Assembly: GCA_035504215.1 (NCBI GenBank)
Contig: DATJSI010000090.1
Span: forward strand, 1-56,288
Length of the DNA: 56,288 nucleotides
DNA from: Mycobacteriales bacterium
Lineage (GTDB): Bacteria > Actinomycetota > Actinomycetes > JAFAQI01
Reading direction: 5' to 3'
The notes beneath the pieces were generated by a model. That model worked only from the letters and a program-made list of their open reading frames with translations, made no database searches and had not been told where the DNA came from. Positions 2,471 through 14,746 of this stretch are shown here, piece by piece. Position 1 is the first letter of the stretch, and the number at the start of each line of letters is the position of its first letter. The position numbers were made by a program, and so were the translations under genes.

Positions 2471-4018
2471 ATGAACCGACCCGGCGCGCCGGACGATCCA
2501 TCCGGTGAGGGACCGGCCGCGCTGCGGGCGGCGCCGGGCGCGGAGGATGTCGTGGAGCAACGGTTTGCCGACTACGTGCGCGAGCACTGGCCGGCGCTGG
2601 TTGACCAGGTCAGCGCCGAGTACGGCGACACGACTGCAGATCGCCAGCGGGCCGAACGCGTTCTGGTCAGGAGCCTGACCAGGCTCGGGTTGCGCTGGCG
2701 TCGCGTGCATGACGACCCGGACTCTGAGTTGCACCGCCTCCTTCTTCGAGACCCAGCCGGTCGGTCCGACCGGCAGCGAACCGATCCGGACGGATACCTC
2801 GTCATGGACGTGTCGCCGGCCGGCACGGATCGGGACGGCGTCGACGCCGCCGGCGACCCGATGTCGGTCGACGCCGCTCTCGCGAGCATCATGCGCGCGG
2901 TCCGGCGTACTCGTCAGCGCCAGGGCGCTGCGGTTGCTGTGGTCGTCGTGATTGCGGGTGCGGTGATCGCGTCGTCGATCGGACCCGGTTCGGCACGGCA
3001 CGGAGGCGGCAAGGCGGCCGCTGCGGTGGTGCTCGCCAGCGCGGTGCACTACCCGCAGGGCCCGACCGACTTCGCGAGCGACGTGACCGCAGGCGGCGGC
3101 TACATCTGGACCATCGAGACCCGCCCGACCCGGGCCGGGTCGCTGTCCTACGTCGTGAAACGCAACCCGGTCAACGGGCAGGTCGTCGGTCGCTACCGCG
3201 TCCCGCGGCCTGACGATCACATCGCCTACGGCTTCGGCAAGGCCTGGGCCTGGCACGACGACAACGACTACCCCTCGACCGCGATTGCGACGGTGGACGG
3301 TGCGGGTGGCGTGGACGTCGAGCGCTCGACGCCGTCGATCGCCATCGATGAGGTGACCTTCACCGACCGCTTCGTCTGGCTGACCGAGCCGCGCGCCAAC
3401 CAGGTCATGACGATGCGCGACGGCGTGCTCGGCGCGCAGGCGGTGTCATCGGTCAGCGGCGCGCGTTTCGTCGTACCACTCGGACCGAGCTCGGTCCTGG
3501 TCGCGGGCCGAAGCGGCCTGATGCGCGAGCTGCCGAGCGGGAACAGCGTCGTGATCGGCGGCACCCCCACGTTGGTCGCTCCGGCGCCGTCGTACGGGAT
3601 CTGGATCGTGACCGGCCGGCGGGCGTCGTACTTCCCGGCCATCAGCGATCGGGCGACCCTCACTTTGCCGCTGTCGCTCGAGGTCGGCGCCGTCATCGGC
3701 GACCCGAGCGACGGTGTCTACATCGCTACCCGCAGCCGAAACCCTCGGCATTACGACCCGTACCTCGTGTACTACTCGCCGGCGGCGCTCGAGAAGCACC
3801 ACCCGAAGCCGACCGCGAGGCTCGACGGGTTCGTCCAGGCCGAGACGATGACGGCGAACCCCGCCGGTGGCATCGTCTTCACCACGAACGAGGGTGCCGT
3901 CGACTCGTGGAATCCGGCGGGACACCCGGTGTCGGCGGGGAAAGCCCCGAACCGGGTCGACCACGCTGCGCTACCCTCGTTGCCGCGGCGGCTTCCGCCG
4001 CGGGGAGGCTTCGCCTAG
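2471..4018 (+). CDS. Membrane-anchored protein: sigma-factor-like N-terminus, one TM helix, extracellular propeller-like domain
   Basis: Residues about 28-100 (FADYVREHWPALV ... LRWRRVHDDPDSELHRLLLR) resemble region 2 of SigE-type ECF sigma factors, but no region 4 HTH follows. A single hydrophobic helix (about 153-172, AVAVVVVIAGAVIASS) leads to a roughly 330-residue exported domain with repeated short strands (WTIETR, VWLTEP, GIWIVTG), like a beta-propeller. The topology is therefore cytosolic N-terminus and outside C-terminus, as in transmembrane anti-sigma or sensor proteins. The final codons lie inside tRNA-Ser(GCT), overlapping by 15 bases, and pass through a GC hairpin, so the original stop may have been lost. 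The function is unknown; the sigma-like reading is by eye. Confidence 0.7.
   Translation: MNRPGAPDDPSGEGPAALRAAPGAEDVVEQRFADYVREHWPALVDQVSAEYGDTTADRQRAERVLVRSLTRLGLRWRRVHDDPDSELHRLLLRDPAGRSDRQRTDPDGYLVMDVSPAGTDRDGVDAAGDPMSVDAALASIMRAVRRTRQRQGAAVAVVVVIAGAVIASSIGPGSARHGGGKAAAAVVLASAVHYPQGPTDFASDVTAGGGYIWTIETRPTRAGSLSYVVKRNPVNGQVVGRYRVPRPDDHIAYGFGKAWAWHDDNDYPSTAIATVDGAGGVDVERSTPSIAIDEVTFTDRFVWLTEPRANQVMTMRDGVLGAQAVSSVSGARFVVPLGPSSVLVAGRSGLMRELPSGNSVVIGGTPTLVAPAPSYGIWIVTGRRASYFPAISDRATLTLPLSLEVGAVIGDPSDGVYIATRSRNPRHYDPYLVYYSPAALEKHHPKPTARLDGFVQAETMTANPAGGIVFTTNEGAVDSWNPAGHPVSAGKAPNRVDHAALPSLPRRLPPRGGFA
3983..4003 (+). terminator. GC-rich hairpin abutting the 5' end of tRNA-Ser
   Basis: CCGCGGCGG (3983-3991) and CCGCCGCGG (3995-4003) form a perfect 9-bp stem with a 3-base loop. 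The last stem base is directly next to the first tRNA base. It lies inside the 3' end of the upstream coding frame. It could end upstream transcription or assist tRNA 5' processing; there is no T-run. Confidence 0.5.
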
Positions 4019-4092
4019 TCCGGTCTATGGCGCCGCACTGCTAATGCGGTTTGGGTTCACCCCCATCCCGGGTTCAAATCCCGGAGCCTCCG
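4004..4092 (+). tRNA. tRNA-Ser(GCT)
   Basis: Acceptor stem GGAGGCT (4004-4010) pairs with AGCCTCC (4085-4091), with discriminator G at 4092. The anticodon arm is CCGCA-CTGCTAA-TGCGG, giving anticodon GCT for serine AGC/AGT codons. The long variable arm and T arm CCGGG-TTCAAAT-CCCGG are typical of a class II tRNA. CCA is not encoded. The gene is intact and its 3' half is the attachment site of the elements downstream. Confidence 0.95.
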
Positions 4093-4101
4093 CTGCTGAC
4101 C
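4035..4101 (+). repeat. Attachment-site core, copy 1 (attL, inside tRNA-Ser)
   Basis: This 67-bp stretch from the anticodon stem of tRNA-Ser to 9 bases past its end recurs perfectly at 14680-14746 and with differences at 8784-8851. Such duplication of a tRNA 3' half is the standard footprint of tyrosine-recombinase integration. Here the core is still joined to a complete tRNA 5' half, so this is the left, tRNA-restoring junction. Confidence 0.9.
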
Positions 4102-4162
4102 CGGCTCTGACCTGGGCCTTCACGTGTCTAAGTGGTGCGAGTCGCTACAGAAATTGACCGAG

Positions 4163-4185
4163 CCGCATTTTTTCAGTTGCAGTTG
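4163..4185 (+). other. Left arm-type sequence of element E1
   Basis: CCGCATTTTTT followed by AGTTGCAGTTG lies 61 bases after core copy 1. A closely similar CCGCATTTTT-AGTTGCA block lies 51 bases after core copy 2. The shared AGTTGCA word also builds the right-end arms, so these are candidate recombinase or accessory-protein binding sites. Confidence 0.6.
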
Positions 4186-4225
4186 TGAGACGCCCGAGGA
4201 TGGTGAGCCGGTCGCCGCTATGCGG

Positions 4226-4570
4226 TCAGTGGTGACCCGCGGCCGCGCGCGGTGGTGGTGAGATCTCCTGCTCGCCGGGATTCATGCCGCAGATCTCGAC
4301 TCCATTCCAGAACGCGATGTAGCCGGCAACGTCGGCAGCCGCTTCGTACGGCGCGGGGTAGTACCAGGCGGCATCGACGAGGCGGTCCCCGTCGACGGCG
4401 ACGTGGGAGTAGGCGGCGTCGCCTTTCCAGGTGCAGTGCGTAACCGTGCTGCTCAGTTCCAGGTAATTCTGATGGACATGGTGCGGCGGGAAGTAGTGGT
4501 TGCCTTCGACGAGCACGGTGTCCTCGCTTTCAGCGATTGTGACTCCCTTCCAGGAGGCAGTGATCGTCAT
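4226..4570 (-). CDS. DUF427 domain protein
   Basis: The 114-residue protein has the DUF427 pattern: an N-terminal WKGVTIAES strand, VEGNHYFPP, the central CTWKGDAAY and a late AAWYYPAPYEAA segment with a final AGYIAFW. The family is a small single-domain beta fold of unknown biochemical role. The start codon overlaps the stop of the SRPBCC gene upstream by four bases (ATGA, 4567-4570), indicating translational coupling. It is the last gene of the MFS-SRPBCC-DUF427 operon divergent from a TetR repressor. The short tail after the domain (PPPRAAAGHH) is low complexity. Confidence 0.9.
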   Translation of the reverse strand: MTITASWKGVTIAESEDTVLVEGNHYFPPHHVHQNYLELSSTVTHCTWKGDAAYSHVAVDGDRLVDAAWYYPAPYEAAADVAGYIAFWNGVEICGMNPGEQEISPPPRAAAGHH

Positions 4571-5037
4571 CGGGTCACCTGCTCCTCGCGGGCGGGATCA
4601 GCGGACGCCTCAAGATGAGCCTTCAGTCGCTGTAACGACTCGGGGAGGGTCTTGCGGATGCTGGCGGTCAGAAACGGTGCCATGAGGCGAAGGAGCCCGC
4701 GCAGTTCCGGGGACATCGTGAGCGTGACGATCGTGCCACCGTCGGCGTCATTCAGGATCCAGTTGCCGGCCGGTGCGACAGTGCCGGGGCCAGACCTCGC
4801 GGGCGGACCTTGCCAGGCGAGTTTCACATTGGGCTCGAAGACGACGTGCCGGAACGTGCCCTGCGCACCCCGCGTCATGCGGTAGGTGTAGACAGCGTCG
4901 GGGCCGGGTGCGGAGCCTTCGGTTCGCTGGACCCAGTCGAAGTCAGTGGCGTAGATGGGAAGAAGCTCCGCGTGGGCAAGAAAGTCGAAAACCTCGTGTC
5001 GCGATCGGGCGATCGTGACCTGCGACGTGACATTCAT
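4567..5037 (-). CDS. SRPBCC (START/Bet v1-like) family protein
   Basis: The 156-residue protein begins with the usual SRPBCC strand and helix (VTIARSRHEVFDFLAHAE) and ends with a long amphipathic helix carrying LPESLQRLKAHLEA. These alpha/beta helix-grip proteins bind hydrophobic ligands in a cavity; polyketide-cyclase-like members are common. I chose ATG 5037 because the domain starts there; the longer open frame upstream runs antisense to the MFS gene. The gene is 26 bases downstream of the pump and overlaps DUF427 by four bases. The ligand is unknown; context suggests the substance exported or sensed by the pump system. Confidence 0.88.
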   Translation of the reverse strand: MNVTSQVTIARSRHEVFDFLAHAELLPIYATDFDWVQRTEGSAPGPDAVYTYRMTRGAQGTFRHVVFEPNVKLAWQGPPARSGPGTVAPAGNWILNDADGGTIVTLTMSPELRGLLRLMAPFLTASIRKTLPESLQRLKAHLEASADPAREEQVTR

Positions 5038-5063
5038 GGCAATGGTCTCCTTCTTGGCGCTGG

Positions 5064-6539
5064 CTACGCGGCGAGGGGCGCGACGGGGACAGGCTCGAGG
5101 GTGGTCGGTTCGCCTCGGGTGTTGGTGGCCCGGACCGCTATCAGGGCCGCGGCGACCAGGAAGACTGCCGCGGCGATCAGCGCCCGGTGGAACCCAGAGG
5201 CAAGAGCCGACGGTTGGGCGATGTGCGTTGCGAGAAGCCGATTCGTGTGGGAGGTGGCGATCGCGGTGAAGATCGCGATACCGAGCGCCCCGCCGAGTTG
5301 TTGGGAGGCATTGATCAGTGCGGCGGCGAGCCCGGCCTGATCTGCTGGTACGCCGGCGTTGGCGGCGGTGGTCGCACCGACGAACACCGCGCCAAGCCCG
5401 AGCGACATGACGATCAGTCCTGGCAGCAGATCGGTTGGGTAGGTGCCGTGAAGCGGCAGCCGGGACAGATAACCCACGCCGCCCGCGGCGGCGAGAGCAC
5501 CAATGACGAGCACCGGTCGCGTGCCGGTGCGGGGGAACAGCTTGGAGCACACACCGGCCGCTACGATGACTCCGCCGGTCACCGGCAGATACGACAGGCC
5601 CGTGCGGATCGGCGAGTACCCGAGGACGTCTTGCATATACAGGGTCAGGAAGAAGAAGGTCGACAGAAATCCGGCGATCGCGATCAGCTGGGTTGCGTCG
5701 GCGGCGGCGAGTCCGTCGATCCTGAATACGGATAGCGGCAGCAGGGGTCGGTCCACTCGGCGTTCATTCACGACGAAGCCGGCCAGAATGATCGCCGCGG
5801 CGATCAGGCAGCACACGGTTGATGTCGCGCCCCACCCGACGATCGGCGCGCGCACGATCCCGTAGACCAGCAGCAGCATCCCGGCCGTGGACAGCAGGGC
5901 ACCGAGCAAGTCAAATCGCGCGACGCCAGCACGGGGGCGGTCACGATCGATCAGGAGAAGCGTGCCGGCAAGAATTCCGACGCAGGCCAGCGGGTTGACG
6001 AAGAACACCCAGCGCCATCCCGGTCCTTGAGTAAGGACACCGCCGAGCAGCACGCCGGCTGCCGACGCAACTCCTGCCATCGCGCCCCACGCGCCGAGGG
6101 CCTTCGTGCGATCAGTACCGGAACTGAAGCTCGTGGTGACCAGCGACAGTGCCGCCGGCAGCATCATGGCGGCACCCAGGCCCTGGACCAGCCGAGCAGC
6201 GACCAGTACGCCCGATTCGTTCGCGAGGCCGGCGCCCAGCGATGCGAGTGCGAACACGACCGTGCCGGCCACCAGCAGGCGGCGCCGTCCGAGCAGATCC
6301 GCCGCCCGACCACCGAGCAGCATGAAACCGCCGTAGGTCAGCAGGTACCCGCTGATCACCCATTGCACGTTCTGCACCGACACATGCAGGTCGTCGTGTA
6401 TCGAGGGCAGCGCCACATTGACGATCGAGGCGTCGACGTAATCGAGGAACGCCACCAAACAGAGCAACAGAAGTGTCAGTTTCCCCCGCCGCGAGGCCAG
6501 GAACGAGCTGCCGCCGGCCGCGACGGTGGAAGTGGCCAT
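5064..6539 (-). CDS. MFS transporter, DHA2 (14-TM) drug:H+ antiporter type
   Basis: A 491-residue membrane protein with about 14 hydrophobic helices. The first helix reads LTLLLLCLVAFLDYVDASIV, the DHA2 motif with an acidic residue pair. Between TM2 and TM3 lies the MFS motif A version GGRAADLLGRRR. Motif C-like GVASAAGVLLGG is near residue 160. The family exports drugs or cationic compounds using the proton gradient. Start ATG 6539 has AGGGAG seven bases upstream. It is divergent from a TetR regulator, with two palindromes between them, so it is probably the repressed target and is induced by its substrate. Confidence 0.92.
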   Translation of the reverse strand: MATSTVAAGGSSFLASRRGKLTLLLLCLVAFLDYVDASIVNVALPSIHDDLHVSVQNVQWVISGYLLTYGGFMLLGGRAADLLGRRRLLVAGTVVFALASLGAGLANESGVLVAARLVQGLGAAMMLPAALSLVTTSFSSGTDRTKALGAWGAMAGVASAAGVLLGGVLTQGPGWRWVFFVNPLACVGILAGTLLLIDRDRPRAGVARFDLLGALLSTAGMLLLVYGIVRAPIVGWGATSTVCCLIAAAIILAGFVVNERRVDRPLLPLSVFRIDGLAAADATQLIAIAGFLSTFFFLTLYMQDVLGYSPIRTGLSYLPVTGGVIVAAGVCSKLFPRTGTRPVLVIGALAAAGGVGYLSRLPLHGTYPTDLLPGLIVMSLGLGAVFVGATTAANAGVPADQAGLAAALINASQQLGGALGIAIFTAIATSHTNRLLATHIAQPSALASGFHRALIAAAVFLVAAALIAVRATNTRGEPTTLEPVPVAPLAA

Positions 6540-6562
6540 AGCACTGCTCCCTCTACAGACTT

Positions 6563-6578
6563 AGTTGGACTTCTAACT
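6563..6578. promoter_or_regulatory. Candidate TetR operator 1
   Basis: AGTTGGACTTCTAACT is a 16-bp imperfect palindrome 24 bases upstream of the MFS start. It shares spacing and half-sites (AGT..., ...AACT) with the palindrome at 6610-6625. It is a plausible site for the adjacent TetR protein controlling the pump operon. Confidence 0.65.
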
Positions 6579-6609
6579 CATATCATGCGGCCTTGATGTC
6601 TACAATGCA

Positions 6610-6625
6610 AGTCAGACGGCTAACT
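6610..6625. promoter_or_regulatory. Candidate TetR operator 2
   Basis: AGTCAGACGGCTAACT is the second 16-bp palindrome of the MFS-tetR gap. It ends directly before the AAGGAG ribosome binding site of tetR (6626-6631), so binding would block tetR expression as well, giving autoregulation. Centre-to-centre spacing to operator 1 is 47 bases. Confidence 0.65.
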
Positions 6626-6637
6626 AAGGAGACGGGC

Positions 6638-7198
6638 ATGGTCACGACCGGGCCTGTGCCAGGCAAACGGGAACGACTGGTTCACGCGGCGACTGAGCTC
6701 GTCCACCGACAAGGGGTTGAAAAGACCACGCTCGCTGACATCGCCGAGGTAGCCGACGTTCCGCTCGGCAACATCTACTACTACTTCAAGACGAAAGACG
6801 CGCTGGTCGCAGCCGTCGTCGAGGCGCATGTTCGCGGCGTACTCGACACCATTGAGTCCCTCGGTCAACACCGCACGCCGAAAGCGCGGCTGAAGGCCCT
6901 CACACGGACGCTTGCGGCTCGCGCGGATCTCATCGCTAAGTACGGCTGCCCGCACGGCACACTGTGCTCGGAACTCGACAAGAGCGAACAGAACCACGAC
7001 GTCGCCCGTCTGATGAACCTGCCGCTCGCATGGCTGGAGGACCAGTTCCGTACCCTGGGTCACCGCGACGCGCGCCAACTGGCGCTCACCTTCCTCGCGA
7101 GCTACCAGGGAACAGCTGTTCTGACCCACACCACCCGCGATCCATCAGTACTAACCGCCGAAGGCCGACGGTTAGAGCGCTGGATCGACTCGCTATGA
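6638..7198 (+). CDS. TetR/AcrR family repressor of the adjacent pump operon
   Basis: The N-terminal HTH reads KTTLADIAEVADVPLGNIYY followed by YFKTKDALV, the standard TetR recognition helix and tail. The C-terminal half contains GCPHGTLCSELDK, seen in the YxaF/LmrA-like subgroup that often controls multidrug exporters. I chose ATG 6638 because AAGGAG (6626-6631) sits six bases before it; the frame opens further upstream at 6593. The resulting protein is 186 residues. It is divergent from the MFS pump with two shared palindromes between them, so autorepression and pump repression are likely. The inducer is unknown. Confidence 0.9.
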   Translation: MVTTGPVPGKRERLVHAATELVHRQGVEKTTLADIAEVADVPLGNIYYYFKTKDALVAAVVEAHVRGVLDTIESLGQHRTPKARLKALTRTLAARADLIAKYGCPHGTLCSELDKSEQNHDVARLMNLPLAWLEDQFRTLGHRDARQLALTFLASYQGTAVLTHTTRDPSVLTAEGRRLERWIDSL

Positions 7199-7221
7199 CA
7201 CTTGGGTACTTGTGTAGGGCC

Positions 7222-7653
7222 TCAAGACGTGGCGAAGTCCCGACCTTGATCGGCTCGATACGTAGCGGCGATCGCGTCCAGTAGCGCGTTGCGGTCCGCT
7301 CTCGCTGCGGCGACGAACTCCGGGTCGGCGGCCGTCCGCGCGTCGTACTGAGCGCTCCAGATGATCATCTCGACGAGGACCGGAGCCAGGTCGATGCCCT
7401 TTGTGGTCAGGCAGTAGGTCACGCCGCCCTCATTGCGGGCCGCGACGTGCCGATCGACGATGCCCGCAGACTCAAGCGCGCGAAGGCGCTCCGCCAAGAT
7501 GTTCGACGCGATCCGCTCCTCGCTTCGACGAAAGTCCTGGAATCGTCGCTTCCCCTTGAACAATAGGTCGCGGATCACGAGAAGCGTCCAACGGTCGCCG
7601 AAGCAGTCGAGAGCAAAACCGATCGGGCAATCCGAACGACGAGCGGCTGCCAT
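7222..7653 (-). CDS. HxlR family transcriptional regulator
   Basis: The 143-residue protein carries the HxlR signature: Cys near the N-terminus (SDCPIGFALDCFGDRWTLL), a winged helix with RIASNILAERLRALESAGIV, and YCLTTKGIDLAPVL. Members are dimeric winged-helix regulators responding to small molecules or redox-active electrophiles. Two Cys residues (about 9 and 17) flank the first helix and could sense thiol chemistry. It is divergent from an SRPBCC gene over a 55-base gap with nested inverted repeats, so it probably regulates that gene and itself. Confidence 0.92.
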   Translation of the reverse strand: MAAARRSDCPIGFALDCFGDRWTLLVIRDLLFKGKRRFQDFRRSEERIASNILAERLRALESAGIVDRHVAARNEGGVTYCLTTKGIDLAPVLVEMIIWSAQYDARTAADPEFVAAARADRNALLDAIAATYRADQGRDFATS

Positions 7654-7660
7654 GGCTCGA

Positions 7661-7701
7661 AGCCTAGCAAGGTTGCAAAAGAAAACCTATCTCTCTAGGC
7701 T
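7661..7701. promoter_or_regulatory. Nested inverted repeats, candidate HxlR operator
   Basis: AGCCTAG (7661-7667) and CTAGGCT (7695-7701) are perfect inverted repeats, and inside them AGGTT and AACCT form another pair 9 bases apart. The block fills most of the gap between the divergent HxlR and SRPBCC genes and overlaps both likely promoters. Confidence 0.55.
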
Positions 7702-7708
7702 GCGACTC

Positions 7709-8176
7709 ATGACCCGCCTCACCAACGTGATATCCATCGATGCGTCGCCCGGAACAGTCTGGGCGATCGTCGCGGACCTGGGCGCTCTCGCCGACTACGA
7801 CCCGACCGTCAAGGCCGTCGAGGTCACGTGCGGTGCGCGAGCAGGCCAGGGGGCCACTCGCCGCGTGACCATGCGCGACGGGAAGCACTGGTTCGAAGAA
7901 CGATTGGCCGCCTTGGAGCCAGACGCGAGCCTCACGTATGAGTTGACAGCCTGCAACTTCCCGATCGCTCGGTTGCAGCACACCTATACCTTCGCGCACC
8001 AGAACGGATCGACGGTCGTCACGCAGGTAATGGAGTACACACCGAAATTCGGGTGGGCCGGAAGGCTCCTCGACGCCGCGATGCTCCGCCGCGGCTTCAA
8101 CGCCGGCGTCATCGCGTTTCTCGGCGGGTTGAAAGCGCGCAGTGAAGGGCCTACCCCAGCGGCAGACGCCCGCTGA
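7709..8176 (+). CDS. SRPBCC family protein (polyketide cyclase/dehydrase-like)
   Basis: The 155-residue protein starts with a helix-grip strand and helix (VISIDASPGTVWAIVADLGA) followed by ALADYDPTVKAVEV, typical of the polyketide_cyc2 branch. It ends with a C-terminal helix carrying RRGFNAGVIAFLGGLKA. These proteins bind hydrophobic ligands and sometimes catalyse cyclisation, but no catalytic residues are assignable. ATG 7709 is the first codon that gives the family's normal start; the longer frame is antisense to HxlR. It is a second SRPBCC gene in E1, unlike the first in sequence, and is probably controlled by HxlR. Confidence 0.88.
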   Translation: MTRLTNVISIDASPGTVWAIVADLGALADYDPTVKAVEVTCGARAGQGATRRVTMRDGKHWFEERLAALEPDASLTYELTACNFPIARLQHTYTFAHQNGSTVVTQVMEYTPKFGWAGRLLDAAMLRRGFNAGVIAFLGGLKARSEGPTPAADAR

Positions 8177-8197
8177 GTCTGCCGAAACGCGACAACG

Positions 8198-8533
8198 ATG
8201 TACGACGAAGCGCTCGCCGCCCGGGTCCGAGACATTCTCGCCAATGAACCGGACCTGGACGAGCGAAAGATGTTCGGCGGCCTATGCTTCACGCTTTCGG
8301 GCAACATGACCTGCGGCATCGTCGGCGACTCGCTCATGCTCCGGCTCAACGCGCAGCTCGCAGCCGCCGCTCTCCATGAACCGCATACCCGCCCGATGGA
8401 CTTCACCGGCCGACCAATGAAGGGCATGGTCTACGTCGCTCCCCTCGGCCTCAAAGAGCGAGCGCTGCAGCGATGGCTCGACGTGGCAATTGGCTACGTG
8501 CGCACCCTTCCCGCCAAACCCGTCAGACCGTGA
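8198..8533 (+). CDS. TfoX N-terminal domain protein
   Basis: The 111-residue protein matches the single TfoX_N domain: RKMFGGLCFTLSGNMTCGIV, then LMLRLN and a later MKGMVYV with a C-terminal helix ALQRWLDVAIGYV. In gamma-proteobacteria TfoX controls competence, but solitary TfoX_N proteins in actinobacteria have no established role. It follows the SRPBCC gene by 21 bases on the same strand and is probably cotranscribed. It is the last gene of E1 before the right-end arm sequence. Confidence 0.9.
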   Translation: MYDEALAARVRDILANEPDLDERKMFGGLCFTLSGNMTCGIVGDSLMLRLNAQLAAAALHEPHTRPMDFTGRPMKGMVYVAPLGLKERALQRWLDVAIGYVRTLPAKPVRP

Positions 8534-8625
8534 ACCCTCCGGGCGGATCTGGATCAACGCATGGCCTGGGCACCGGTCGCTGCAGGCCGCACCGGCGCAA
8601 CGGGTGCCGCCGTTTGCCCGTCCTG

Positions 8626-8652
8626 CCAGTTGCAGTTTCAGTTGCAGTTCGA
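8626..8652 (+). other. Right arm repeat of element E1
   Basis: The 27 bases are built from two direct AGTTGCAG words separated by TTTC and are identical to 14522-14548. Both copies end 131 bases before the first base of the next tRNA-Ser core. Conserved sequence plus conserved spacing points to arm-type binding sites of a shared recombinase. Confidence 0.75.
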
Positions 8653-8783
8653 ACGCCACTCCGCGTCGTCCATCCGGGTCCAGCCGCGTCCGCAGCCATC
8701 CGGCGCAAGGGACTGACGTGCACAAACGTTCGCCCCCCGGACGACTGCGGCCACGGGCGAACACCTACGGGCACGCTCACGGA

Positions 8784-8851
8784 GCACTGCTAATACGGTT
8801 TGGGTTCATCGCCCATCCGGGGTTCAAATCCCCGAGCCTCCGCTGCTGACC
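8784..8851 (+). repeat. Attachment-site core, copy 2 (junction between E1 and E2)
   Basis: This 68-base version of the tRNA-Ser 3' half has a complete T arm (CGGGG-TTCAAAT-CCCCG) and 3' acceptor strand AGCCTCC. It lacks the tRNA 5' half, so it is not a tRNA gene. Relative to copy 1 the T-stem bases differ in paired fashion and TGCGG has become TACGG. It may have come from a tRNA-Ser of another host. The region 8534-8926 otherwise contains only the arm sequences. Confidence 0.88.
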
Positions 8852-8902
8852 TGCGGTGTTGCACTTTCTGCTGCTTCTATCCGCTAGAGGACTATCTCCT
8901 AC

Positions 8903-8920
8903 CCGCATTTTTAGTTGCAA
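8903..8920 (+). other. Left arm-type sequence of element E2
   Basis: CCGCATTTTT-AGTTGCA mirrors the E1 left arm at 4163-4185. It begins 51 bases after core copy 2, against 61 in E1, a difference of about one helical turn. Confidence 0.55.
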
Positions 8921-8926
8921 TCGCGC

Positions 8927-11632
8927 TCACGCCGTCGCGGGCAGACCGAACAACCCCGGGCTCTGACGCGCCAGCTCGGTGAGCTCGTGTCGGGACGACA
9001 CGTCGGCTTTGGCGTAGATGTTGCCGAGGTGGTAGCCGACGGTGCTTTGTGTGATGAACAGATTGCGGGCGATCTGCGCGTAGCTCATGCCCGAGGTCAC
9101 CAAGGCGAGCACGTCTCGCTCACGGTCGGACAGTGAGAGTGTCGCGGTCTTGATCGCGGCGGTTGTTTTCCGTATCTCATCGACGTGTCGGAGGTAGGAC
9201 GCGGCGCCGAGCTGTTGGTAGGTGGTGGACGCAAGTTCGAGTGACCGGGCTGCGGCTGACGAGTCGTTCATCAGATGCGCGACCCGGGCGTGATCCACGT
9301 GGATGTGCGCGCCGTACAGCGGCATGGATTGAAGTGGTTGCGCGGTGGCCGCGCGCAGAGCCGCGAGCGCGGTCTTGCCGCCGCCGTTGGCCTCCGCTGC
9401 CAGTCCGCGGACCCAGGCACTCGCCGCTTCGGACCAGTCGGTGCGGCCGGCAGCAGCGGACAACCGTTGGGCACACAAGGCCGCGTCGTCGAGCGCCCTG
9501 GCCCACACCGCGGCCAGTCCGGCGTGGACGTGCCAGACCAGATTCTTGGTGAGCTCCCCGCGGCGAACCTTCTCCAGCGGTTCGCGGACCTGCGAGTGGA
9601 GCCCGGCGTCGATCGTGCCGGACGCGTGCTGCCGGATCACCTCGACCACCCACAGCTGGTCGACAGCTTCCAGCCATGGCGAGCGGGCGGTTATGTCCCG
9701 GCCGGTGGCGATCGCCTCGTCGGCCGCGTCGAAGTCGCCGACTCCGATGGCTGGGAGCGCAGCGCTGACCAGCAGTAGCGGCGCCGGCCAGTCACCGCCG
9801 AGTTCGAGGGCAAGCCGCATGTTGACTCGTGACATCGCCCAGTCGCCGGCGAACCACTGCGCCCGGGCCAGCGCCGCGTGATACGTCCCGCCTCCGAAGT
9901 CGGCCAGTCCGTGTTGCATCCGGTCGGTCATTTCGGTCAGGTCTGCGACCGCGAGGGCAAACTGTCCGGTGTTGGAGCGGACCAAGCCACGCCAGCCGAG
10001 CGTCAGCGTCTGGTCTGCCGGCACCGCACCCGGGCTGTTCGGCAACTCCGTGAGTCCAGCAACCTGGTCCGGGGTGCTCGCGTGCCGTGCGCTGAGCTGA
10101 GCGCCGGTGAGGATGGCGAGGCGCGTGAAGGTCGGGTCGTAACTGTCGTAGCACCGCATTCGCGTCAGCGCCTGCTCGATCAGCTTCTCCGGTTCACCGG
10201 CAGACAGCCGGGACCAAGCCAGAAGGGCTTCGATCCGGTGCTGGGTCCAGGCAGCGTCGGCTGCGACCGGCTGTGGGCTGGAACGCGGGGTGAGCAGCGT
10301 GACCGCGTCGCGGGCCCGGCGTTCCCATTGCGCCAACTGGGCGAGCACGAGGTCGCGTAGTGGGGTCGCCGGCAACTGGTCCAGTTCGTCGAGCTGGTCG
10401 CGCACCGTTGCCCGGTCGCCGTTGCTGAGGGTGTCGAGCAGCGACTCGAGCCGAAGCCGCTCGCGCTGGGCCGGGTCGCCCGTGACCGCGCTGGCCAACC
10501 GGTGGAAGTGCGCTGCCAGCCGATAAGAGAGCTGGTTGCGCAGCGACACCGCGTGGCTGTCGAGTTCGGCGGCGAGGTCCTCGTCGTACCCGGTGATCGC
10601 AGCGGCCCGGTGCTCGAGGGCGGCGCTGGTGCCGCTGACGACGGCCGAAGCGCGGCTGTGCAGCGTCTGCCGATCGGAAGCAGTCAGGGACCGGTACGTC
10701 GCGGCACGGATCAGGCTGTGCGCCAGGCGCATCTGCTCTCCGGTCGCGGTCGGCCGGCTCTCCGCAAGACCGGCGTCGACCAGGGCGGTGACTGACGCGG
10801 TCGGCTCGGACAGACCGGCCACGGTCGCCGCGTCGCGCAGTGGCCACCAGTCGCCGCCCAGCACCGACAATGCGGCAGCGAGGCGCCGGGCCGGCTCGGG
10901 CAGCCCGGCGACGTGGTCGGTCACCCACTGGCTGAACTCGGCCGGCGCCGGCAGCTCCCGCATCTGTGCGAGGTCACCCGCCGCGTACTCGTTGACCAAA
11001 CCGAATAGATAGAGCGGATTTCCAGCAGTGTGCTCCCAGAGCCGGGCGGCGGTGACGCGGTCGATGTCCGGCCGTCGCTCGCAGACCAGTTCGACCGCGA
11101 GCGTCTCCGACAGCCCGGCCAGCTCGATCCGCTCGACCCGGCCGGGCCGGGCTGACCATCGCCGCCACCCGGGATGCTGGCCGGCGTCGAGCGCGCGGCT
11201 AGCGAGCGCGATTAGCACTCGGTCGCCTGCGGAGCGGCTGACGACCGCGAGCAGCGCCTCGACCGACTCACTGTCCGCCCACTGCAGGTCGTCGATCGTG
11301 ACCAGCAGCGGGTTGTCGCCGGACAGCTCGTCGTCGATCCGGGCCCGCAGCCGCTGCGCCGCGAGCACCGTGGTGAGTTGGCCGCTCGCCGTGGCCGCCG
11401 TGGGGTCGACCCCGAGCCCGGCGAGGACGTCGTAGGGAAGTGCCGCCGAAGTCTCGAGGGCCTCGGTTGCGAGCCAGGTGAAACCAGCGGCCCGCTCACC
11501 GACTGTGTCCAGCAACGTCGACTTGCCGAGTCCGGCAGCGCCCTCGACCACCAGAACTGTCGGCGTGCCGCCGGCCGCTCGTGCGACGGCAGCGTCCAGG
11601 GTGCCGAGCACCTCCTCGCCCCACCGGATCAC
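8927..11632 (-). CDS. LAL-type LuxR family regulator (MalT-like STAND ATPase)
   Basis: The 901-residue protein has Walker A GAAGLGKST at residues 31-39 and Walker B-type LLVTIDDLQWAD near 115. A long helical, TPR-like middle follows, and a C-terminal LuxR HTH spans about 837-890 (LSDRERDVLALVTSGMSYAQ, then STVGYHLGNIYAKADV). LAL regulators are large ATP-dependent activators, frequent next to efflux or secondary-metabolite genes. Its start is 69 bases after the MFS stop, so it may be cotranscribed with the pump. The stop lies six bases from the E2 left arm. The signal is unknown. Confidence 0.92.
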   Translation of the reverse strand: MIRWGEEVLGTLDAAVARAAGGTPTVLVVEGAAGLGKSTLLDTVGERAAGFTWLATEALETSAALPYDVLAGLGVDPTAATASGQLTTVLAAQRLRARIDDELSGDNPLLVTIDDLQWADSESVEALLAVVSRSAGDRVLIALASRALDAGQHPGWRRWSARPGRVERIELAGLSETLAVELVCERRPDIDRVTAARLWEHTAGNPLYLFGLVNEYAAGDLAQMRELPAPAEFSQWVTDHVAGLPEPARRLAAALSVLGGDWWPLRDAATVAGLSEPTASVTALVDAGLAESRPTATGEQMRLAHSLIRAATYRSLTASDRQTLHSRASAVVSGTSAALEHRAAAITGYDEDLAAELDSHAVSLRNQLSYRLAAHFHRLASAVTGDPAQRERLRLESLLDTLSNGDRATVRDQLDELDQLPATPLRDLVLAQLAQWERRARDAVTLLTPRSSPQPVAADAAWTQHRIEALLAWSRLSAGEPEKLIEQALTRMRCYDSYDPTFTRLAILTGAQLSARHASTPDQVAGLTELPNSPGAVPADQTLTLGWRGLVRSNTGQFALAVADLTEMTDRMQHGLADFGGGTYHAALARAQWFAGDWAMSRVNMRLALELGGDWPAPLLLVSAALPAIGVGDFDAADEAIATGRDITARSPWLEAVDQLWVVEVIRQHASGTIDAGLHSQVREPLEKVRRGELTKNLVWHVHAGLAAVWARALDDAALCAQRLSAAAGRTDWSEAASAWVRGLAAEANGGGKTALAALRAATAQPLQSMPLYGAHIHVDHARVAHLMNDSSAAARSLELASTTYQQLGAASYLRHVDEIRKTTAAIKTATLSLSDRERDVLALVTSGMSYAQIARNLFITQSTVGYHLGNIYAKADVSSRHELTELARQSPGLFGLPATA

Positions 11633-11701
11633 CGCCGCGGCCCCTTCTCCGGGACTCGTTGGCTCAGCCCGTCCCGCGAGGGCAATTTATCCAAATGGTC
11701 T

Positions 11702-13720
11702 CTATGCCACCAGGCTGCGAGCGACGTGACGAAGGGCGTCGTCGAAGGCCGGGTCGTCCTCGGCGTTCCAGTCCGCGAGCCGCTCGGTCAACCAGTCGCG
11801 GATCGACGTACCGAGGTGTTCGAGCTCCTCGCGGCCGCGGTCGGTGACGGCAAGCGCACCGTCGTCACCGCTTAGGAAGCCCTGGGTCCGCGCGGTGTCG
11901 AAGGCGGGTCGCATCACCGGTGCCGGCACGCCGAATCGCGCGGCGATCGAGTGAAGGTCGGTCGGTAGACCCATCCGCGACCGTGCAGTCACGACGCCGA
12001 CGCTCCAGCCGGTGGCGCCGTCCAGGGAGGTGTCGGCAGTGGACCGGATCGTCGCGATATCGTCCGGCCCGGCGCTGCGCAGCATCCGGGAGATCGCCTG
12101 CTCGAGCTGCACCATTCGGTCCGGGCCAACCGGCGCGTTGAAGCCGTCGCCGACATCGCTGGCGCCGGCCTGTGCGGTGCTCCGCAGCGGTTGCTGCTTG
12201 AGGAACAACGAGACCGCGAAACCGACCAGAGCGACCGGCACTCCGGCCAAGAACAGCAGGTGCAGCGCGTGTGAGTAGGCGGCGACGATCGGGGTGATCT
12301 CGTGTGACGGGTAGGCGTGCAGCGTCTCTGGGGAACTGACGGCGGACGGATTCACACCCGGTGAGTGGACGAGCGCCTTGGCCAGCAGAGGCGCAAGCGC
12401 ATTAGCGAAGATCGTGCCGAAGATCGCCGTACCGAACGAGCTGCCGAGAGTGCGGAAGAAGCCGACTCCCGACGTCGCGACGCCGAGGTCGCGGAAGTCG
12501 ACGGTGCTCTGGACGACGGTGGTGAGGATCTGCATCGACAGGCCCACGCCGGCGCCGAACACGATCATGTAGGCGCACAGGGTCGGGTAGCCGGTGGTTG
12601 GCGTGAGCCGGGAGAACAGGTACAGCCCAACCGCCATCGTCAGAAAGCCAGTGATCGGGAAGAGCTTGTAGCGGCCGGTCTTGCTGACCACGGTGCCGGC
12701 CAGCATTGACGTCGCGAATAGCGCCACCACCATCGGGATGCCGCGGACGCCGGACATGGTTGGTGAGATGCCCTGGACGTACTGGCTGAAGGTCGGCATG
12801 AAGGTCAGTGCGCCGAGCATCACGAACCCGACGATGAAGGTCAGGACGACGGAGAAGCTGAACACCGGCTTGCTGAACAGGTGCAGCGGAAGCATCGGCT
12901 CCGCGGCACGGGACTCGACCCAGACGAACAGCGCGAAAGCGATCGCCGATCCGACGACCAGGCCGATGATCGTGCTCGAGCCCCAGGCGTAGGAGTTACC
13001 GCCCCAGCTCAGCGCGAGGGTTACGGCGGCAGCGCCGATCGAGACCAACATGATGCCGGCGTAGTCGATCGGCGCCCGCTTCGTAACGTTGATCTTCGGG
13101 ATGGTGATGGCGGCGAGCGCCATCAGGACGATGCCAATCGGCAAGTTGACAAGGAACACCCAACGCCAGCTGAGGTGATCGGTGAACAACCCACCCAGCA
13201 GCGGCCCGAGGACCAGCGCCACCCCGAAGACCGCGCCCAGCGCGCCCTGGTACTTCGAACGCTCCTTCAGCGGAATAACGTCCGCAATCACTGCACTGGC
13301 GGTGACGCCGAGCCCGCCTGCGCCGAGACCCTGGATCCCTCGCCATGCGATCAGCCAGGTCATGCTGTGCGCGAAGCCGCACATCGCCGAGGCCACGACG
13401 AACATCCCGGCCGAGAGTTGAAGCACAAGCTTTCGGCCGAACCGGTCTGAGAGCCGCCCGGTCAGGACGGTCGAGATCGTGTCGGCGAGCAGGTACGCCG
13501 ATACCACCCACGACAGATGGCCACCGCCGAGGTCACCGACGATCGTTGGCAGCGCAGTCGACACGATCGTCTGGTCGAGTGCAGAGAGCAGCATCGCGAC
13601 CATGACCGTGGCGAACACCATATTCATCTGGCTCCGGCTGATCGCGCCGGCTGCGGCGCTGCCAACCTCGGAAAGGTCGAGCTCCCTTGTCGGAGCTGCG
13701 GTTACGGCTGTGGTGGTCAT
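11702..13720 (-). CDS. MFS transporter (DHA2, EmrB/QacA type) with C-terminal winged-helix-like tail
   Basis: About 14 hydrophobic helices occupy residues 35-530, including MLLSALDQTIVSTALPTIVG in TM1 and the motif A version TGRLSDRFGRK. After the last helix a roughly 130-residue soluble domain follows, with helices and a wing-like strand (LSGDDGALAVTDRGREELEH), reminiscent of MarR-type folds but incomplete. Total length is 672 residues against about 500 for ordinary DHA2 pumps. ATG 13720 is preceded by AAAGGGG. Context with a LAL regulator suggests drug or metabolite export. What the tail senses is unknown. Confidence 0.88.
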   Translation of the reverse strand: MTTTAVTAAPTRELDLSEVGSAAAGAISRSQMNMVFATVMVAMLLSALDQTIVSTALPTIVGDLGGGHLSWVVSAYLLADTISTVLTGRLSDRFGRKLVLQLSAGMFVVASAMCGFAHSMTWLIAWRGIQGLGAGGLGVTASAVIADVIPLKERSKYQGALGAVFGVALVLGPLLGGLFTDHLSWRWVFLVNLPIGIVLMALAAITIPKINVTKRAPIDYAGIMLVSIGAAAVTLALSWGGNSYAWGSSTIIGLVVGSAIAFALFVWVESRAAEPMLPLHLFSKPVFSFSVVLTFIVGFVMLGALTFMPTFSQYVQGISPTMSGVRGIPMVVALFATSMLAGTVVSKTGRYKLFPITGFLTMAVGLYLFSRLTPTTGYPTLCAYMIVFGAGVGLSMQILTTVVQSTVDFRDLGVATSGVGFFRTLGSSFGTAIFGTIFANALAPLLAKALVHSPGVNPSAVSSPETLHAYPSHEITPIVAAYSHALHLLFLAGVPVALVGFAVSLFLKQQPLRSTAQAGASDVGDGFNAPVGPDRMVQLEQAISRMLRSAGPDDIATIRSTADTSLDGATGWSVGVVTARSRMGLPTDLHSIAARFGVPAPVMRPAFDTARTQGFLSGDDGALAVTDRGREELEHLGTSIRDWLTERLADWNAEDDPAFDDALRHVARSLVA

Positions 13721-13761
13721 CTCATGCCCCTTTGGTTGTTCCGGTCGGCCTGTCGCGCCGC

Positions 13762-14373
13762 TCAGGCGGTGACCGTCGGCGCCGCGGGGGCGTCGTCGCT
13801 GCTGGTGATGCGGCTGGTCTGCTTGAGCGCGAACAGGACCAACACGACCGGGAGCACCCAGTTGAGAGCCAGGTTGGTACGGCGGTGCAGCTCGCCAGCC
13901 GCCTGCAGATAACCGGAGAGGAAGTGCCCACCGGACATCACAATGATCGCCGCGGCCCACACTGCGGTGAGCTTGCGGTTAACGGCGTGAAAGATCGGCG
14001 AGGTCCAGTACTGCCGCGGCGTCGCCTCTCGCGCGTACTGCTCAGTGAACGGCGTGAACGCGAGCGAAGCCAGCATTACCAGACCGAGCACGAGAGCGCA
14101 GCCCCCGCGACCGTAGTCGACAATGTGCCGACGCACCGCGTCGTCGCCGACGAACGCGATCGCGGTCATCGCCGCGAAGGTCACCACGCCAGTCGCGTCG
14201 ATCAGCTTCAACTTCGAACCACGGGTGTTGAAGATCGTGATCGCGAGCGCGATCAGGCCTGCGATCGCCGCTGCCACCGGCACGAAGCCGGTGCCACCGT
14301 GGTCGGCCAGGATCGTGAACGCCGCCCACGAAATCAAGCTCAGAAACATCTTTTTGTTGCCCATGACGTCCAT
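13762..14373 (-). CDS. Multi-pass membrane protein of unknown function
   Basis: The 203-residue protein has five or six hydrophobic stretches: about 8-25, 30-48, 60-75, 90-110, 140-160 and 170-190. The first reads MFLSLISWAAFTILADHGG. I cannot assign a family; it has the look of small intracellular-septation or DUF3159-like membrane proteins, but without a decisive motif. It lies 41 bases upstream of the MFS gene on the same strand and is probably the first gene of the E2 operon. ATG 14364 is an alternative start. It could be an accessory subunit for the pump. Confidence 0.7.
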   Translation of the reverse strand: MDVMGNKKMFLSLISWAAFTILADHGGTGFVPVAAAIAGLIALAITIFNTRGSKLKLIDATGVVTFAAMTAIAFVGDDAVRRHIVDYGRGGCALVLGLVMLASLAFTPFTEQYAREATPRQYWTSPIFHAVNRKLTAVWAAAIIVMSGGHFLSGYLQAAGELHRRTNLALNWVLPVVLVLFALKQTSRITSSDDAPAAPTVTA

Positions 14374-14521
14374 CCCCTTCGTCGAGTCGCACCGCCGCTC
14401 TGGCGGCGACTGAACTCAGTAGATGGCCGATTGCCCCCAACTCACCTGTGAGCAATTCACAGTCTTCGGGCACCGCCGGCGGCACGACGCTACGGCTAGG
14501 TCGGGGTTCGGCGCGCGCAGC

Positions 14522-14548
14522 CCAGTTGCAGTTTCAGTTGCAGTTCGA
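14522..14548 (+). other. Right arm repeat of element E2
   Basis: It is identical over 27 bases to 8626-8652 and at the same distance (131 intervening bases) from the downstream core. The gap 14374-14679 holds this arm and no gene. A second conserved stretch (CCTACGG ... CACTGC) lies directly before the core in both elements. Confidence 0.75.
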
Positions 14549-14679
14549 TCGCTACTCGGAGCCGTCCGCACGAGTCCACTCAAGACCGTCGACGTCCGGT
14601 GCGGCGCACTGACCTGCGACAACGCAGATCCGGCGGACCGCTGGGGCCGACCCTGGACTCCTACGGACGCGCTGACGGG

Positions 14680-14746
14680 GCACTGCTAATGCGGTTTGGG
14701 TTCACCCCCATCCCGGGTTCAAATCCCGGAGCCTCCGCTGCTGACC
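14680..14746 (+). repeat. Attachment-site core, copy 3 (right end of the E1-E2 array)
   Basis: It is perfectly identical to 4035-4101 over 67 bases, covering the tRNA-Ser 3' half and nine further bases. The 5' half of a tRNA is absent upstream, so it is the attR-type scar and not a gene. Sequence to its right should be the original chromosome or an older insertion. Confidence 0.9.

Follow-up and report, generated by a model that had tools for sequence, protein, structure and literature searches.

Two probable integrase-less, CIME-like elements stacked at a tRNA-Ser(GCT) gene of an actinomycete

The window analysed here is a stretch of 56,288 nucleotides on contig 90 in the genome of an actinomycete recorded as a Mycobacteriales bacterium. 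This host genome is available as draft sequence only (3.47 Mb in 150 contigs, 96% complete). Behind a tRNA-Ser(GCT) gene, the window contains two adjacent modules, E1 and E2. With a probability of roughly four in five, these are two integrative elements without an integrase that are stacked in the tRNA gene and resemble cis-mobilisable elements (CIMEs). Judged from their sequence, E1 and E2 are best read as CIME-like relatives of the tRNA-Ser-specific integrative and conjugative elements of actinomycetes. This assignment follows from the presence of the same ends around other cargo in related genera, and from elements in another family, f17, in which the tRNA-Ser gene is followed by a similar arm and an integrase. 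As the docking sites are kept and no enzyme accompanies them, E1 and E2 most likely travel with the help of another element. An earlier interpretation of this DNA, the sequence-only reading, had proposed modules of the CIME type that borrow a recombinase. The proposal is supported by cargo that is not syntenic, by the same ends elsewhere and by the integrase-bearing kin in f17.

Core copies and arm repeats

The intact tRNA-Ser(GCT) gene, which is the attachment gene, was located by ARAGORN at positions 4004..4093. Its 3′ half, from the anticodon stem onwards and with 8 bp behind it, forms core copy 1 (4035..4101), the attL of E1. Core copy 2 (8784..8851) is the attR of E1 and the attL of E2, while core copy 3 (14680..14746) is the attR of E2; both were recognized by their sequence match to the tRNA. 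All lie on the + strand. When the 98 bases from 4004 to 4101 were compared with the whole host genome, three matches were obtained, the query itself included, with 14680-14746 matching at 100% (E 6.4e-29) and 8784-8851 at 93% (E 1.2e-21). A chance origin of the three copies is excluded. Together with ARAGORN, this genome-wide comparison confirms that the tRNA 3′ half is present three times and joined to a complete tRNA only at the first copy, as had been noticed from the sequence alone. Recombination between adjacent core copies would release 4,749 bp in the case of E1 and 5,896 bp in the case of E2.

The identity between the cores starts on the 5′ side of the anticodon stem, which fits tyrosine integrases with a cleavage site in the anticodon arm. 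Core copies 1 and 3 do not differ at any of their 67 bp. Core copy 2 deviates from both, among others by paired changes in the T-stem, and shares 59 of 60 tRNA bases with the tRNA-Ser of a relative from another genus of the host family (G007) and 53 of 54 with that of G005. In the standard model, copy 1 would stem from E1 and copy 2 from E2, while copy 3 would be the original chromosome end. No arm was seen 3′ of core copy 3, so the chromosome probably starts there. With its closest match in a tRNA-Ser from outside the genus of the host, this one short stretch fits a foreign origin of E2, which may have arrived from elsewhere in the family.

Besides the core copies, the ends of E1 and E2 contain arm-type repeats of a putative tyrosine-integrase attP, which are missing from the sequence-only reading. 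The tandem arm CAGTTGCAGTTTCAGTTGCAGTT is present at 8627-8649 and 14523-14545, the sole two sites in the host genome at up to 3 mismatches. The P-side tandem arm of E1 occupies 8626..8650 and that of E2 14522..14546 (both +), with the CAGTTGC motif starting 157 bp before core copy 2 and core copy 3, respectively. On the P′ side, E1 has a single arm, CAGTTGCAGTTG, at 4174..4185 (+), where the homology to the left end of the element in another relative, G001, comes to an end. E2 has a single degenerate arm, AGTTGCAAT, at 8913..8921 (+); both P′-side arms were recognized by sequence. The sequence TTGCAGTT is found in seven copies in the window, where 0.37 are expected, and five of these lie at the ends of E1 and E2; none of 100 shuffles reached seven. 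The order arm-core-arm is the layout of an attP that has been split by integration, and the repeats are putative arm sites of an integrase.

E1, E2 and G001 have the same arm-to-core spacing, and their right ends are 74-85% identical over 218-227 bp. A right end on contig 121 (C121) of a further relative, G008, matches them at 83-89% over 99-100 bp and in a separate arm match of 28-32 bp. The similarity of the right ends begins at the arm, and at E 0.01 none was found on the cargo side. At the left end, E1 and G001 align at 87% over 151 bp, up to the P′ arm. Between E1 and E2, all 25 arm positions are identical, compared to 84 of 133 (63%) in the spacer (one-sided Fisher p 3.5e-5). When this comparison of arm and spacer was applied to the ten pairs of five ends, eight pairs had p < 0.05 (uncorrected, for pairs that are not independent); the two others are E2 with G008 C121, and the ends on contigs 193 (C193) and 121 of G008 with each other.

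Same ends and other contents in related genomes

Among 393 genomes of the class, the right-end DNA is present in three, i.e., that of the host itself, G001 and G008, all of the host family. G001 and G008 represent two other genera, and here the same ends enclose unrelated cargo, again at this tRNA. In G008, a 1.6-kb unit in tRNA-Ser contains HigB- and HigA-family genes. In G001, both ends are present, on two contigs, and the assembled cargo comprises a ParE-like gene (just below the cut-off), a PIN-domain gene and genes of unknown function. On contig 193 of G008 (L073, 849-5172), a right end stands beside IrrE-like, helix-turn-helix (HTH), JAB-like (BilC match) and ThiF genes, probably a ubiquitin-like defence operon; the left end is not on this contig. 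Here, the sequence reached after arm and spacer yielded no tRNA gene and keeps 15 of the 17 anticodon stem-loop bases, as counted by eye. For these reasons, the site reads as a secondary-site insertion.

In G004 (L038, 5790-6990), two open reading frames (ORFs) that look VapBC-like by eye are situated after the tRNA-Ser and before a P′ arm. Next comes an antitoxin-like ORF that resembles one of the G001 element, and no second tRNA copy lies between. Elements at the same tRNA-Ser in G006, G009, G011 and G022 were considered and rejected, because their arms are different by eye. Those of G009 and G006 adjoin an integrase match, and that of G022 adjoins an integrase-like ORF (by eye). Differing tandem arms at this tRNA-Ser (L025, L028, L029, L030, L033) are, by eye, of the GCGGTCACAC or the TTGCTCACAT type. 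This tRNA-Ser is an integration hot spot shared by several integrases.

To judge the synteny of the cargo, 11 other genomes of the host family, all from other genera, served as comparison set. In these, the DNA of E1 has no match longer than 443 bp, and the matches above 100 bp are at 64-73% identity. The long matches of E2 (up to 1.24 kb, 65-70%) are confined to its major facilitator superfamily (MFS) gene. Five relatives (G001, G004, G005, G006 and G009) have an MFS gene upstream of tRNA-Ser, at a distance of a few kb, and it is this gene that the DNA of E2 matches. The host counterpart of this EmrB-type gene is on contig 105 (L226 1700-3180), with collinear neighbours and 70-78% DNA identity. 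Because the host keeps the syntenic gene on contig 105 and the E2 MFS protein is 44-47% identical to the upstream MFS proteins of the relatives, the E2 protein is a separate relative and was rejected as a conserved syntenic gene. For the E1 MFS, no match was obtained in these stretches of the relatives at E 1e-20. Contig 105 may adjoin the contig of the window. An AMP-binding ligase gene upstream of tRNA-Ser in G001, G004, G005, G006, G008 and G009, with 70-78% protein identity to the one in the window, indicates that the same locus is compared; the stretch from there up to tRNA-Ser varies. Fixed synteny of the E1 and E2 cargo was therefore rejected for these 11 genomes, and with it the outcome, genes and tRNA fragments always together, that the sequence-only reading had named as fatal to itself.

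Across the class, the tandem arm pattern at up to 2 mismatches was found in 14 of the 393 genomes, and in 6 with the reversed control. The 14 are those of the host (G000), G001 and G008, three from f17 (G027, G094, G298), one from f14 (G078) and seven others (G283, G301, G192, G263, G140, G251, G362), which were dropped as there is no tRNA-Ser core in the stretch inspected. A search for a tRNA-Ser end with a short arm gave 10 of 393 genomes, a count that was not used because of its noisy control (about 40 genomes).

In f17, an arm lies directly behind tRNA-Ser(GCT) and is followed by a tyrosine integrase, P0001 in the case of G298. As the G298 element also carries RepSA, it resembles the actinomycete integrative and conjugative elements (AICEs). 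The tRNA-Ser end with an arm is present in 21 of 297 f17 genomes, with no reversed-control match seen, and the 26 rows obtained represent 24 distinct sites, two rows being double. An integrase stands end to end directly behind the arm at 8 of these sites (stops were checked for P0001 alone), is partial or broken at 11, and is not found within about 1.5 kb at 5. Two exact P′ arms are present at all 8 sites of the first group, at 3 of the 11 and at none of the 5; the last have one exact P′ arm, in 2 of 5 cases with a second, mismatched one. End and enzyme thus seem to decay together in f17, and similar arms with the same core are found in elements that bear an integrase as well as in visibly decayed ones. 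Relatives of P0001 comprise 254 plasmid and 838 phage records, all below 60% identity. Of the integrase-bearing relative that the sequence-only reading had called for, the same core and similar arms were thus found in f17, and no counterpart in the host draft or the 11 family genomes.

A comparable array exists on contig 342 of G078 (L072, 2987-13600), where similar arms occur in a tandem in tRNA-Leu(TAA). The integrase-like gene of the first unit is split over two frames. The second unit shares the P arms, has no exact P′ arm and carries a CopD-family gene; no integrase match was found between 4.7 and 13.3 kb of this contig.

Mobility and rival explanations

None of ten cargo ORFs of E1 and E2 matches a recombinase, replication or transfer family in a Pfam scan, which was restricted to these larger ORFs and was the only search to cover serine recombinases. 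Nine belong to families unrelated to transfer and one is without match. PF00589 has four matches in the host genome, on contigs 22, 81, 99 and 120, and none on contig 90. Two of these proteins are XerC/XerD-like by eye, one lies beside tmRNA and one near tRNA-Met. Further islands may be marked by the tyrosine integrases on contigs 81 and 120 (L131 and L132), the one adjoining tmRNA and the other close to tRNA-Met. The possibility that an integrase was missed in the window was rejected, as there is neither a PF00589 match on the contig nor a remnant detected by tblastn. The statement that both modules are devoid of an integrase consequently holds as far as covered by the PF00589 search and by tblastn with one related integrase. 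The same applies to replicase and transfer genes, as no such family was recognized among the ten ORFs and no RepSA in the host genome. E1 and E2 accordingly have the following properties of CIMEs: flanking attL and attR sites (three cores, with arms), no functional integration genes (PF00589 on the contig, ten ORFs scanned) and no transfer or mobilisation genes (ten ORFs scanned, RepSA). They do not have int, rep and tra genes of their own, as AICEs do.

Integration would have split attP into two halves, so that a P′ arm now follows the proximal core and the tandem P arms precede the distal one by 157 bp. An AICE-type tyrosine integrase, specific for tRNA-Ser(GCT) and supplied in trans or by an adjacent newcomer, would bind the arms and cut the core in its anticodon stem-loop, where we infer the crossover point to lie. 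Each unit would then be excised or inserted, and the tRNA gene left intact. Such an integrase may still move E1 and E2.

A number of observations weigh against this reading. The arm-to-core spacing on contig 121 of G008 is about 68, not 157, and the tandem-arm pattern alone is non-specific, 7 of its 14 genomes having it off any tRNA-Ser core and the reversed control giving 6. No integrase remnant that would point to AICE descent was found in the window by tblastn with P0001 (best E 1.6). E1 and E2 have one P′ arm each, degenerate in E2, and while the fully kept P arms speak for continued mobility, the single P′ arms speak against it and hint at decay. By analogy with the f17 sites without integrase, where one P′ arm is likewise left, the ends of E1 and E2 may be partly decayed and the units stranded. 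Moreover, the host draft and the 11 other genomes of the family yielded no integrase with arms of the E1/E2 type (CAGTTGCAGTT), and none of the P0001-like integrases in these 12 genomes is on an arm-bearing contig. The helper is therefore hypothetical within the host family. Its absence is weak evidence, since drafts, such as this one of 96% completeness, easily lose mobile elements. The P0001-like integrases on contig 12 of G004 (tRNA-Phe) and contig 213 of G008 (tRNA-Lys) were rejected as helper, since their arms are different by eye.

The strongest competing explanation is that E1 and E2 are former AICEs from which the int, rep and tra genes have been deleted, so that the ends are fossils and nothing moves now. 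This is a serious possibility, albeit the less probable one; it differs from the CIME-like reading in mobility and not in identity, so that the confidences in the two overlap. It agrees with an integrase that is partial, broken or missing at 16 of the 24 f17 arm sites, with the one P′ arm left in E1 and E2, as at the five f17 sites without integrase (exact arms), and with no helper having been found in the 12 family genomes. However, the P arms are still complete in E1, E2 and G001, in contrast to the spacer, of which E1 and E2 now share 63%. The ten cargo ORFs are open, with no broken integrase found among them, and the core of E2 matches the tRNA of another genus.

Phage satellites, i.e., units packaged and moved by a helper phage, would be as small as E1 and E2 and would likewise show no transfer family among the cargo ORFs. 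This origin is nevertheless very unlikely, as the ten ORFs include no phage-type or packaging family and the strict arm pattern has no match in a viral contig collection. A looser pattern gave 45 viral loci, none with a tRNA-Ser core and one with a weak integrase match (25%) about 6 kb from the arm. Least probable is a simple duplication of the tRNA 3′ half and neighbouring DNA without site-specific recombination. The three direct copies in one contig could arise in that way, but the reading is contradicted: what E1 and E2 have in common is 196-227 bp at the right ends, their genes being different save for MFS and regulators, and the same ends enclose other cargo in other genera.

The CIME-like reading can be extended to a lasting class of integrase-free, tRNA-anchored cassettes. 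Their cargo (efflux, toxin-antitoxin, ubiquitin-like defence operon) would be framed by a P′ arm and a tandem P arm and be freely exchanged while they spread between genera of the family, with the tRNA as stacking site and the integrase coming from foreign AICEs. This extension is doubtful.

Known systems and cargo

CIME-like elements are already known in actinomycetes. The CIMEs of Streptococcus are flanked by att sites, have no integration or transfer genes, bear cargo and are stacked at a gene end (PMC5704250, PMC7563491), with a size of 1.2-13 kb for the classical ones (PMC7563491). E1 and E2 are alike in the att sites kept, the missing integration and transfer genes, the tandem accretion and the size. 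They differ in their actinomycete host and in forming an array without an integrase-bearing partner, none with these arms being found in the draft. XSAM1, an island of 42 kb beside pSAM2 (PMC4891641), and the 20-kb TR1 of scab-causing Streptomyces (PMC8369830) have been called CIMEs as well. Both are actinomycete islands adjoining an integrative element that presumably acts as their helper, unlike E1 and E2 (4.7 and 5.9 kb), which have no adjoining helper. AICEs in tandem in one tRNA have been reported for Frankia (PMC3218068). With AICEs of the pSAM2 type, E1 and E2 have the tRNA 3′-end target in common and, in the f17 relative, a tyrosine integrase and RepSA; the int, rep and tra genes that AICEs have of their own are families not found in E1 and E2.

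A literature search of titles and abstract openings found no description of an array that lacks an integrase and has these arms, which does not prove that there is none. As far as searched, three features are new: the host lineage, an array that includes no partner with an integrase, and interchangeable cargo that, in three genera, is sharply bounded from arm to arm.

Integron cassettes make use of attC sites and the integron integrase, which is a different system. The sites of E1 and E2, which consist of a tRNA core and arm-type repeats, are unlike the attC sites of clusters of attC sites lacking integron integrases (CALIN), although CALIN cassettes likewise combine cargo and recombination sites with a recombinase from elsewhere (PMC11389934).

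E1 and E2 offer a clean case of islands that can probably move solely by a borrowed recombinase. They suggest which DNA each island must keep, namely some 220 bp at one end and 150 bp at the opposite end. In addition, the arm motif combined with a tRNA 3′ copy could reveal integrase-less islands that are missed by searches starting from the integrase.

The cargo of E1 starts with a DUF427 protein (4226..4570, -; PF04248), a SRPBCC/polyketide cyclase-like protein (4567..5046, -; PF10604) and a DHA2/EmrB-type MFS efflux transporter (5064..6539, -; PF07690), which scores 230.5 bits for TIGR00711 with a cut-off of 230.2. These are followed by a TetR regulator (6593..7198, +; PF00440), an HxlR regulator (7222..7653, -; PF01638), a SRPBCC protein (7718..8176, +; PF10604) and a protein with a TfoX N-terminal domain (8198..8533, +; PF04993). 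E2 contains a large AAA/LuxR-type regulator (8927..11632, -; PF13191 and PF00196), a DHA2/EmrB-type MFS efflux transporter (11702..13960, -; PF07690, with TIGR00711 above the cut-off) and a membrane-protein-like ORF (13762..14373, -), which has no Pfam match and a weak match to the VC0807 family, below the cut-off. The true start of the E2 transporter, judged by eye, is probably near 13.72 kb, inside the ORF listed. With MFS and regulator families assigned by Pfam in E1 as well as in E2, the efflux-plus-regulator character that had been attributed to both modules is corroborated.

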